NCBI GenBank assembly: GCA_033030425.1
Contig: JAUFSD010000025.1
Span: 310,001 to 374,000 of the forward strand
Origin: Verpa conica
Taxonomy: Eukaryota; Ascomycota; Pezizomycetes; Pezizales; Morchellaceae
Direction: 5' to 3'
Length of the DNA stretch: 64,000 nucleotides
In this document: piece after piece, positions 32,812 to 40,675 of the stretch
Position numbering within the stretch: position 1 is the stretch's first letter
Layout: every line of letters starts with the position of its first letter
Program-made: the position numbers and the translations under genes
The notes under the pieces: generated by a model
Told to the model about the DNA's origin: nothing
What the model saw: the letters and a program-made list of their open reading frames with translations, nothing else
Databases searched by the model: none

Positions 32812-32817
32812 CATATA
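32812..32817. repeat. Target site duplication, left (CATATA)
   Basis: Identical to 40670-40675, directly outside the TAC...GTA termini. A one-mismatch 8-bp reading is possible if the ends are placed one base further in, but only the 6-bp reading is exact. Confidence 0.75.
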
Positions 32818-32851
32818 TACGGGGGCGCGTATAGACCAGTTCGCAGTTTCG
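32818..32851 (+). repeat. Left terminal inverted repeat (34 bp)
   Basis: Starts TACGGGGGCGCGTATAGACC and ends GCAGTTTCG. It is a perfect reverse complement of 40636-40669. Confidence 0.95.
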
Positions 32852-33028
32852 ATCCTGCAGTGGGTTGCAACCACCTATACCTAAAAACTTATTGGCAAAT
32901 AAAATAAAATAAATTCATACTAGTTTAAGAGCAGAGAAGATTAAAATATTAATTATGAATCCAAAATTGCTATGTAGTATACAAAGTAGTAAATACTACT
33001 TCTGCTGTTACTATGTATTTCTCAATGT

Positions 33029-33210
33029 GGCAGCTGTGAACTCTGCCGTTGCCATGTGTTTCTCAAAACGGTAACTGTGAACTTTGCCATTGTCATGTTT
33101 ATCCCAGTGTAGCAACTGTGAACACTGCCGTTGCTATGTGTTTCCGAAAATGGTAACTGTGAACTTTACCGTTACCATGCTTATCCCAATATGGCAACTG
33201 TGGACTTTAT
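33029..33210 (+). repeat. Left subterminal array, five copies of CGGTAACTGTGAACTTT-like motif
   Basis: Motif starts fall at 33029, 33070, 33111, 33152 and 33193, an exact 41-bp period. The core varies as GG(T/C)AACTGTGAAC(T)TTGCCG. The same motif occurs inverted near the right end. This placement suits transposase binding sites, which is inference. Confidence 0.85.
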
Positions 33211-33253
33211 TCTCACTGTATTCTTTTAATTTTTCTTAATAGTACAAAAATAT

Positions 33254-35061
33254 TTATTCCTCAAATTCGCTAGCAGTATTATATGCAGATCCAGATTCAG
33301 ATTCTCCACCTTCATCTACAATTTTGTCATTATTTTCCTCCATATTTTGTAATCCACTTTCTCTAATATGTTGAGCATCTATGCTAATAGGATAATCTTT
33401 TTCAAGAGGAGAAGATATTAAATGAACTCGAGGGTTTCGATTTCCTTTAATATATACATGATTTCTGACATTTAATCTAAGCGTACAATACATAAGGAAA
33501 TGTGACTTCTCACCATTGAGTTCTCGTTTTTCATAGGTAACTGGTAGTTCAAAACCACCTTTTAGCAGCAAATGTTTACACCATGACATAGTTTGAGCTG
33601 GTAGAAATATATCATGATCTAATAACATTTATATTAGCATGTCTTTGTATTTAAATTAGAGCAAAATTTGGATATTTTACCATAATTCCCTACCATATCT
33701 TCTAAGCAAGAAATCCCTTCTCTTGATGGAATATAGGCATAGTCAGATATATTATCTGGTGGATAAAAATAATTATAATAAGGTATTCCGGTAGGTAACC
33801 TAGGCCGATTCTTTTGAACTCGAATTTTGTGTGAATTCCAATTTTCTACAAAGCTATGAAGCTTTTCACGAATTATAGGCATGTAGATAAATAACAGAGC
33901 AATTTTATCTTCATTTGAGCCATCAAAAAGATTTGAATTTTGTAGCTCAACAAAATATCTCTAAAAAAATTAATTTAGTTAATTAATATATCGATATATA
34001 GGAGATCAAACATACCTTCCATTCAATTTCTTTTCCTTTAGACAACTGTGCCCACCATGACTCTATTCGGACATTTTTTGTGGAAGCACCATACATAAAT
34101 GTACTCGAGAGATGGATATTTGGGGTTTGTGTTTTATGTAAATGCCAGTGACCATCTGCAATTAACATAGTCTCAGTACCTCTATCAGCTCGTAAATATT
34201 GAGGAAATCGATTGTGCTCTTGAATAGCTTTTAAGTATTGGCTTAAAACGCTAACTCCAGTTCTAGCAGAAACTCCACAATAAAACCATACTATCATACG
34301 AGAATAAGCATCAATTGCCGCATATATTTCTATCCCAAAAAACTCGAGCTTCATATGACCATCAATTGACCAACACCAATTAGGACCTGGACATGTGAAT
34401 TGTGCATGTTTCCGATTAACATCTTTTGTTCTAGATTCCACACCTTGAGGATCTACAATCAATAAAGCTTTTCGTATTCTCTCCCTACAAACAATATTAG
34501 TTATTTAAATTTATATAGGAAATGTTAAATTCCATACGTTGAAGCTACAACTCCTAGGCTTTTCAGATGAACCCAAACAGCTCGGTGGCCAGAGAGAACA
34601 ATATCACCCTTTAATAACTCTCGTTCCAAAATAATCCTCAAGTTTTCATCTGCATGAGTTAAATCCCTACTCAATGTACGTCGAACCATACCCATTGACT
34701 GACGGATCCTAATCATTTTTCGCATCTCTATTTGGAATCCGTTTTTCTGCAGAACCTAATACATTAGCTAACATTTAAAAATATATTAATATAAACCTAC
34801 TCGAAGTATTTGTTCATCATTCAAATTTTGTTTCCAAAATAGATAGCTTAACTGGATCCGTAGAGTAGGAGAATCTTCTGAAGGTAATATTTGTTTCCGA
34901 AAGCTCCAAATATTGAGCCGGGTAGAAAGTGATCTTTCAGAGCAAACAAATCGATTATCAGCAAGCTTTTGTACTACTTGTTTTAGAGAAAGGTTTTGTT
35001 CAATATATAGTTGATATATAAAATCTTTATACTGTTCAAAGGGTAAAGCTGATCGAGGCAT
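33254..35061 (-). CDS. DDE transposase with Clr5-like HTH and integrase core
   Basis: Exons on the minus strand are 34801-35061, 34538-34755, 34016-34484, 33681-33960 and 33254-33618, giving 530 aa, all phases consistent. It starts MPRSALPFEQYKDFIYQLYI. Residues ~5-110 look like Clr5-type helix-turn-helix units (LSLKQVVQKLADN, then LQKNGFQIEMRKMIRIRQ). The integrase-fold core follows with WCWSIDGHMKLEFFGIEIYA, YLRADRGTET and NVRIESWW. Putative catalytic residues are D201, D260 and E301, all intact and all in exon 3. Related proteins are annotated in fungal genomes as integrase-core-domain proteins. It should cut and rejoin at the terminal repeats. The 40-bp repeat array lies directly upstream of its start. 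Confidence 0.88.
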
Positions 35062-35214
35062 AGTATAGCTGGTAATAATGAGTTTAGAAAGTAAAATGAG
35101 TTTAAAAAATTGTAGAGAATTTTGGGAAAGTCTATACATTATATAACAAGTTTTCGAATAATATAAAAAGTATAGAAATGATATAAAAGGCATACTAATA
35201 ACATGAAAAGTGTA

Positions 35215-38667: not shown

Positions 38668-40105
38668 CTACTCCGATTTTTTACCTTTCTTCTCACTTTT
38701 CTTCTCCACAGCTTCTTCAATAATGTTTAGATCCAAAATAATGGGTTGAGTGGGAGCTACTTCACAGTTACATGGCTGATATTTTTTTCCTTCTGATAGC
38801 CAATCTTCAGTGGCAAAATTCATAGCTTCTGCAAGGTTCCAGCCACTATTGATACCAGAATGATATGCTCCAGGCCATACAATTATCATTTCTCCTTTTG
38901 TTTGGGTGAATTGATAGCAAGCATAGCCTGATTTCTTCCAAGCTTCAGGTGTAAGAGGAGGAGAGCTTAAAACAAAGCCTTGGTGACGTAAAGCTTGTGG
39001 ACATGTAGTAATCTCAAGCTCCTCAATAGTAGCTATTAAATAGAATTAATATAAATATAACCTATTTTTTAGTATAGAGAAACTAACCTTTAGATTCTGT
39101 CACAAACATCTGCATGCAATGCCCAGGAATAATATGCCAAATTTTAGGAGCACCATCAATAAGCGTGTTTGCAGAATGGCAATGATAGTCTTCTACATGC
39201 CAGGCAAAAGCAGTACCAGGAGTACCAAAATAAACGTAAGGTGTAGTGATTCCTGGTATAGAATCTAAACCAGGTGTAAGGAGAAGGTTCCAGTCGTTAT
39301 TAAAGAGATGAGTCCATGTTCTATCCATATTAACCATTGAAACTATACTTTGTTAGATATTAAACATTTTTATAAAATGAATAGGGATATACCATCTGTA
39401 TCTACTCCATAAGGTCTTACTTTAGACTGCTGGTTTTTCGATTTCACAACTTCTTTATTCACCTTTTCCCAAAATGAATCCATAGTACCAATTAATTGAT
39501 AGTCTTCCTTTTTGATAATCTGATTATGCCAATGTGACATTTTGACATATGCAGGCAATGAAGCCACTGTATAAGCCTTCCCTCCATCGTCAATACTGCT
39601 TGTAAGTTCTTCAAAAACTTGATTTCTGACAAGAATATCAATTTTGGATAAGGGTTTAGAAACAGGAGTTTTAAACCATTCTTTCCCAGTTTCGATAGGT
39701 GGAAGACATAGCTTTAAACCTCCATAATGCCTGCCTAATTGAGAGAGCATTTGCAGTAGAAGAGGAAACTCTTGGATGCCTTTGGAAGTGGGTGTAATAG
39801 TAGGAGGATAAAGAGTATTTGTATGCTTTACAATAGCATATGTGTCAGGGATTAGATGGAAACGTAAAGGTTTAGGGACTTCAGCAACTGAATTGGCTTC
39901 ATTTGGTTGAGGTAGAATAATTGGTGTTTTTGCTATTCCATAATTATTTAATTATTCAACTATATAGAATTTTATACATACCAATTTCAAGTACTCTATT
40001 TTTTCTAGTCCACTGGCGCTTATATTCTCTTTTAGGATTAATACTATCCTTGCTTACTTTTTTATTAGTAGCAATGGTGTTGATTGTATGGTTGATAAAA
40101 GACAT
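38668..40105 (-). CDS. JmjN-JmjC histone lysine demethylase, KDM4 type, carried by the transposon
   Basis: Exons on the minus strand are 39982-40105, 39393-39932, 39088-39342 and 38668-39032, giving 427 aa with all phases consistent. A JmjN-like segment (YPPTITPTSKGIQEFPLLLQ to GGLKLCLPPI) lies near residues 85-125. The JmjC core reads GITTPYVYFGTPGTAFAWHV and GAPKIWHIIPG. Iron ligands are H270, E272 and H364, with K288 as the 2-oxoglutarate lysine and Y257 beside it. The KDM4-specific zinc site is complete: C317 and H323 (CPQALRH) with C394 and C396 (CNC). No PHD, Tudor or C2H2 finger follows; it ends in a Lys-rich tail. KDM4 enzymes demethylate H3K9me3/H3K36me3 in the nucleus. Role within a transposon is inferred. 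Confidence 0.93.
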
Positions 40106-40178
40106 TTTATATGAACTTGTAAGCAATTAGTATTTTGGTTTTGTGAATTATGGTTGCGCTGCCTCACTTACTTTGATG

Positions 40179-40371
40179 AAAGTTCACAGTTACTGTATTT
40201 GGAAGGTGCTCTGAAGAGTAGCAACAGGAAAGTAACAGCAAAAGTTCACAGTTACCGAGTTGGGAAGGTGCTCTGAAGAGTAGCAACAGGAAAGCAACAG
40301 CAAAAGTTCACAGTTACCGAGTTGGGAAGGTGCTCTGAAGGAAGGCAACAGCAAAAGTTCACAGTTACCGG
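40179..40371 (-). repeat. Right subterminal array, four inverted copies of the left motif
   Basis: AAAGTTCACAGTTACCG occurs at 40179, 40241, 40303 and 40354 (spacings 62, 62 and 51). It is the reverse complement of the left-end motif. The linking sequence GGAAGGTGCTCTGAAGAGTA is also repeated. Confidence 0.85.
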
Positions 40372-40635
40372 TTTGAAAGAGTAACAGCAAAGGAATAGCA
40401 GAGCAGAAGGAATAAATCTTCTGTGCCAAGCACACTGAATCTCGGCGCAAGCCTTGGCGCTGCCTCGGCATCCTCAAGTGAAATAAGTACCTTTTGTATA
40501 ATTAGTATTACTTATTTTCTCTGTCTTATTTTATCTTATCTATTACAGCTGTTGAAATTCTATATATTATTGACTTAGTTGTGGGACCCAGCTGTGGGTA
40601 CCCGGCTGTGGGCCATTGAGTTGCGACCGAAGAAC

Positions 40636-40669
40636 CGAAACTGCGAACTGGTCTATACGCGCCCCCGTA
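40636..40669 (-). repeat. Right terminal inverted repeat (34 bp)
   Basis: Ends GGTCTATACGCGCCCCCGTA; a perfect inverted match to 32818-32851. Confidence 0.95.
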
Positions 40670-40675
40670 CATATA
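40670..40675. repeat. Target site duplication, right (CATATA)
   Basis: Identical to 32812-32817. Confidence 0.75.

Follow-up and report, generated by a model that had tools for sequence, protein, structure and literature searches.

Why should a DNA transposon carry a gene of the histone-demethylase kind? The question is raised by an element in the genome of the fungus Verpa conica, found in a window of 64,000 nucleotides (the whole stretch of contig JAUFSD010000025.1, positions 310,001 to 374,000, that was analysed), which encodes a transposase, a second protein referred to as open reading frame 2 (ORF2) and a JmjC protein resembling KDM4 and Rph1. The answer considered moderately probable here is that an IS3EU-type transposon encodes a JmjC product which likely demethylates histone H3 on the element's own chromatin, keeping its genes and ends open.

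Structure of the element and its movement as a unit

The perfect 34-bp inverted ends, exact CATATA duplication, inverted subterminal arrays and three spliced genes of a preliminary description of this DNA were all recovered (Table 1). Across the whole 64 kb, a scan for inverted arms of at least 30 nt lying no more than 15 kb apart returned three pairs, namely the terminal inverted repeats (TIRs) and two pairs from the subterminal arrays. The 13-mer AACTGTGAACTTT, with up to two mismatches, occurs five times in forward orientation at the left array and four times reversed at the right (including 40354), and a single further match lies elsewhere in the window. The three genes read through with 11 predicted introns, all of the GT-AG type and 45-65 nt in length. 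Introns this short, the Clr5 domain of the transposase and the genes present agree with a fungal origin.

In complete IS3EU families the termini read TA..TA and the duplication is usually 6 bp long (PMC10045372); the families of rust fungi terminate in TAYGG..CCRTA (PMC12730594). The Verpa element bears TA..TA ends (TACGG..CCGTA in this and a second copy described below), 6-bp duplications (CATATA and, around the second copy, GTTTTG) and a transposase of the IS3-like DDE integrase fold, in which Pfam profiles detect a Clr5 domain (E 6.7e-12) and the integrase core PF24764 (E 2.1e-32) and in which D201, D260 and E301 form the likely acidic triad. By its ends, duplication and integrase core, the element fits a complete DNA transposon of the IS3EU type, in agreement with the original assignment. 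The ORF2 protein has no Pfam match, and the 3' exons of its gene are uncertain, the last ones being set by splice-site choice alone. Because none of the three proteins matches TET/JBP or alpha-kinase profiles (Pfam, E up to 0.1), the element is not placed in the TET-bearing IS3EU subgroup.

The preliminary description had called for a search for other copies with the JmjC gene between the same termini, and one was found in the assembly (45.8 Mb in 25 contigs, labelled C1-C25). At C20:1335745-1344756 lies this second full copy of 9,012 bp, in which the three genes recur with all their frames open. Its flanks are unrelated to those in the window, homology ends at the element ends, an exact GTTTTG duplication of its own surrounds it, and 33 of the 34 TIR positions pair. 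The copies differ by 58 substitutions over 7,749 aligned sites (0.75%), and both contain the nested short element with ends TAGTGTTTGTC (on C20 at positions 2786-4467 of locus L005), within which a 1.26-kb stretch accounts for most of the extra length on C20. A second copy between different flanks, with a duplication of its own, shows that the entire unit has moved together with its JmjC gene; the three genes have been inserted twice as one unit. The same facts, together with the identity of the gene unit, rule out chance or an assembly artefact. A separate nested insertion of the JmjC gene is not favoured either, its position being equal in both copies and the search of the whole window for long inverted arms having given nothing beyond the TIRs and arrays. 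A relic damaged by repeat-induced point mutation is ruled out by the open frames and by the CpA/TpG context of just 13 of 50 transitions. A search of the C20 copy against Rfam gave no match. The start of the 1.26-kb stretch was found again at C15:1337767.

The JmjC protein and its relatives

The JmjC protein matches PF02373 (E 2.1e-24), with no other domain at the Pfam cut-off and no reader domains. Its best sequence matches in PDB are yeast RPH1 (103.6 bits) and KDM4D (101-102), followed by plant JMJ14 (93.4) and KDM5A/B (up to 84). Over the JmjC region the protein shares 38% of its residues with RPH1, 36% each with KDM4D and the host KDM4, and 30-31% with KDM5A, the host KDM5 and a third host gene. 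All of H270, E272 and H364, which we take to be the Fe ligands, are kept, as are Y259 and K288, presumably cofactor residues. C317, H323, C394 and C396 are also kept and align with RPH1 and KDM4, where they presumably form the KDM4-type zinc site (C-H-C-x-C). The gene is intact, and its protein is likely of the KDM4/Rph1-like histone-demethylase kind, with its activity predicted from sequence.

PF02373 occurs at six other places in the genome, three of which were examined: a KDM4/Rph1-like gene with a PHD-like zinc domain on C5, a KDM5-like gene with ARID and PHD on C18, and a gene of a third kind at C2:2711k. At 30-36% identity, recent capture from any of these three closest host genes is ruled out.

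Relatives of the JmjC protein were also sought in public sequence data. The whole protein returned one match (P0001, 38%) out of 2,153 candidates, exon 2 one match in Logan (P0002, 56% identical) out of 48, and exon 4 four matches in JGI and Logan (P0003-P0006, 67-73%) out of 31, all four containing PGAYHSG(I/V)NSGWNLAEAMNFAT. Judged by these similarities, P0002-P0006 show what appears to be a wider JmjC branch. Viral or prokaryotic relatives were dropped from consideration, since tblastn confirmed none of the pattern matches (for JmjC exon 4, 8 in viral contigs and 73 in genome contigs; for the transposase exon, 3 in viral contigs).

Sister elements and TET/JBP-like cargo

A transposase-exon query detected 30 pieces genome-wide, every one of the 30 candidates having been scored, and 12 further loci from this list, each taken as a 9.9-kb stretch, were examined. 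Six of them have both ends, with termini of the TACGG type (C1, C8, C5, C18, C11 and C19; Table 1); no end pair was found at the other six (L037-L041, L043). ORF2-related frames accompany the transposase in the elements on C1, C8 and C5, and frames on C18, C11 and C19 resemble ORF2 by eye only. In the C1 element, extra frames (L032 2179-3654, plus strand) have no convincing Pfam match.

A further element at C11:1011003-1016641 (L015, L059, L060) combines IS3EU-type ends, transposase exons and an ORF2-like frame with a TET/JBP exon above the Pfam cut-off (38.7 against 34.9 bits), so that by profile match it clearly carries a TET/JBP-like gene; the repeat flanking it, GTTACTT, is 7 bp long, not 6 bp. 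Such cargo is possibly present in two other sister elements, for which the matches are suggestive only: a 462-amino-acid (aa) frame of the C18 element (L035 6871-8256, minus strand) matches TET/JBP below the threshold (20.4 bits, E 3.3e-4), and the second of two frames in the C5 element (L034 2475-3970, plus strand) has a weak match to the TET-like PF20515 (E 0.085). Strong PF20515 matches at C15:1341768-1342394 and C24:644587-645012 have IS3EU-type transposase pieces at a distance of about 6-7 kb; for the C15 element a right end was looked for and not found. Genome-wide, the Tet_JBP profile gives 21 matches at E up to 1, four of them above cut-off, and among 14 control genomes a below-cut-off match was obtained in one. 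Searches of the sister cargo against NCBIfam and PDB returned no useful match. Weak Tet_JBP matches in 390-aa frames on C1, C20, C22 and C25 have a multi-copy look and perhaps belong to another mobile element.

Proposed function and alternative explanations

The host genome contains three C5-DNA-methylase matches and one Pre-SET match, by which DNA-methylation and histone-methylation layers of silencing are both probably present. Against this background, we infer a mechanism in which the JmjC gene of the element would be expressed in the host and its product drawn to the element, perhaps by binding of transposase or ORF2 to the inverted subterminal arrays, where the demethylase would remove predicted H3K9me3 (trimethylated lysine 9 of histone H3), perhaps also H3K36me3 (lysine 36), from the element's own chromatin. 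Heterochromatin would thereby be countered, the transposase gene read and the ends made reachable, and transposition, predicted to proceed by cutting and pasting at the TAC..GTA ends, would be raised. The escape from heterochromatin suggested in the preliminary description keeps its place as an inference, helped by the TET/JBP-like cargo of the sister elements. More tentatively, and with somewhat greater doubt than belief, the JmjC gene may represent a transposon-specialised KDM4-type branch, and IS3EU elements in one genome may be armed against both layers, with JmjC directed at histone methylation and the TET/JBP of sister elements at DNA methylation, as convergent captures of 2-oxoglutarate dioxygenases.

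Several observations weigh against the demethylase proposal. The protein had been called a JmjN-JmjC enzyme, of which the JmjC part holds; a Pfam search up to E 10 does not detect JmjN, a phmmer alignment to KDM4D that reaches into the JmjN region being the sole sign of it. Trees of 8 and 12 rows have long branches and leave the position of the JmjC protein open. Among the public relatives, P0002-P0006 are protein fragments without genomic context, and the C-x-C after NSGWNLAEAMNFAT is kept in three of the four exon-4 fragments and broken in P0006. When the left end, the right end or JmjC exon 2 served as genome query, two copies and no third were found (counts that are lower bounds, hence at least two copies), so the JmjC gene has not led to a high copy number in this genome. 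JmjC-free sisters exist, none of the 12 sister loci giving a tblastn match to the JmjC protein (E 1e-3). Between the copies, neither the transposase (1 synonymous, 4 replacement changes) nor ORF2 (1 and 6) shows constraint.

The low copy number, the JmjC-free sisters and the unconstrained transposase and ORF2 would also favour a passive passenger, that is, a JmjC gene picked up by chance with no gain for the element. This explanation is nevertheless unlikely. The JmjC frame is open in both copies, its ligands are kept despite 36-38% identity to KDM4 and RPH1, close JmjC relatives occur in other assemblies, and the TET/JBP-like cargo of the sister elements lowers the likelihood of chance capture. 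Of 11 changes in the JmjC gene between the copies, 7 are also synonymous and 4 are replacements (a synonymous share of 0.315 being expected, P = 0.029; Fisher P = 0.036 against transposase and ORF2 pooled), which, with so few changes and several tests made, is a hint of selective constraint and no more; none of the four replacements falls at a catalytic or zinc ligand.

The substrates of JmjC proteins are of several kinds, and the enzyme might instead hydroxylate or demethylate a non-histone protein, for instance its own transposase or ORF2, and so regulate transposition. The identity of only 36-38% to characterised KDM4 proteins and the lack of a detected reader domain leave room for such a substrate; H3 demethylases are nonetheless the best sequence matches, the KDM4 zinc pattern is kept, and JmjC is absent from elements whose transposase and ORF2 are related to these, so those proteins do not need it, which makes this alternative decidedly improbable. 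Equally hard to credit is a JmjC protein that binds silencing proteins and disrupts heterochromatin without demethylation, as proposed for the putative demethylase Epe1 of fission yeast, to which a non-enzymatic role has been given (PMC7192584), since a structural role would not need the catalytic and cofactor ligands, all of which are kept.

Comparison with known systems

VANDAL elements had been offered as the comparison for a transposon's escape from silencing. The closest published systems are instead the TET-bearing fungal IS3EU elements (Kojima 2025, PMC12730594), and from the same source the superfamily emerges as better described in fungi than had been supposed. According to that work, TET/JBP genes occur in IS3EU and ten other fungal transposon lineages, with an anti-silencing role proposed, not shown. 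The TET/JBP-bearing IS3EU of rust fungi and Tuber indicum resemble the Verpa element in their ends (TAYGG..CCRTA), TIRs of more than 30 bp and 6-bp duplications, as well as in having captured a gene for a 2-oxoglutarate dioxygenase that is proposed to act against silencing. They differ in that their enzyme acts on DNA and is encoded between transposase and alpha-kinase genes, whereas the Verpa element combines JmjC with ORF2 and has no alpha-kinase match in Pfam. Neither JmjC nor jumonji occurs in that paper.

Other systems share single features. Giant viruses endogenised in Amoebidium (PMC11244446) are likewise mobile parasites with divergent KDM4-like, JmjC-only genes free of PHD and Tudor, but the carrier is a virus, not a DNA transposon, and the host belongs to another eukaryotic lineage. 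Styx of Zymoseptoria (PMC10853768) is IS3EU-related, with four coding sequences comprising a transposase, a second common gene and captured extras; the text of that paper does not mention JmjC. VANDAL, with its own anti-silencing protein, and HarbingerS/MuDR, with SET methyltransferases, are also DNA transposons with genes acting on epigenetic silencing (PMC12730594), but they belong to other superfamilies and use other proteins, SET adding methyl groups where JmjC removes them. Fungal and animal KDM4/Rph1 proteins have the same JmjC core, ligands and zinc pattern and are the best sequence matches; the focal protein is set apart by its 36-38% identity, the lack of reader domains and of a Pfam JmjN, and its location on a transposon.

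No DNA transposon with a JmjC histone demethylase was reported in the literature searched, which lies outside most subscription journals and does not prove absence. Fungal transposons with enzymes acting on DNA methylation are already published. If the enzyme works, a direct attack of mobile DNA on histone-methylation silencing becomes testable with one 427-aa protein, and the presence in a single genome of JmjC-bearing and TET/JBP-bearing members of the same superfamily allows two anti-silencing routes to be compared in a natural setting.

Features of the window and of the sister elements

Table 1. Positions of the element's parts in the window, and target-site duplications of six sister elements found elsewhere in the genome
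Feature	Position	Strand	Remarks
Whole element, TIR to TIR	32818-40669		7,852 bp
Left target-site duplication	32812-32817	.	CATATA; exact, paired with right duplication
Left TIR	32818-32851	+	34 bp, begins TACGGGGGCGCG; perfect pairing with right end
Left subterminal array	33001-33206	+	41-bp unit, about 5 copies
Transposase gene	33254-35061	-	5 exons, 530 aa
Tandem repeats	35212-36196	.	40-bp unit, then 20-bp unit; between the divergent transposase and ORF2 genes
Nested short element	35303-35722	.	ends TAGTGTTTGTC; flanking 8-bp repeat, 7/8 match
ORF2	36395-37999	+	5 exons, predicted 463 aa
JmjC gene	38668-40105	-	4 exons, 427 aa; KDM4/Rph1-like by sequence
Right subterminal array	40179-40355	-	62-bp unit, about 2.9 copies
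Right TIR	40636-40669	-	34 bp
Right target-site duplication	40670-40675	.	CATATA; exact
Sister element, C1			duplication GCTGAC
Sister element, C8			duplication GGAAGG; one end TATGG
Sister element, C5			duplication CATACC
Sister element, C18			duplication CAGAGG
Sister element, C11	C11:1293140-1297979		duplication ATCTTG
Sister element, C19			duplication with one mismatch

Elsewhere in the window, two 5S rRNA genes lie on the minus strand at 3655-3774 and 3984-4103, their starts 329 bp apart.

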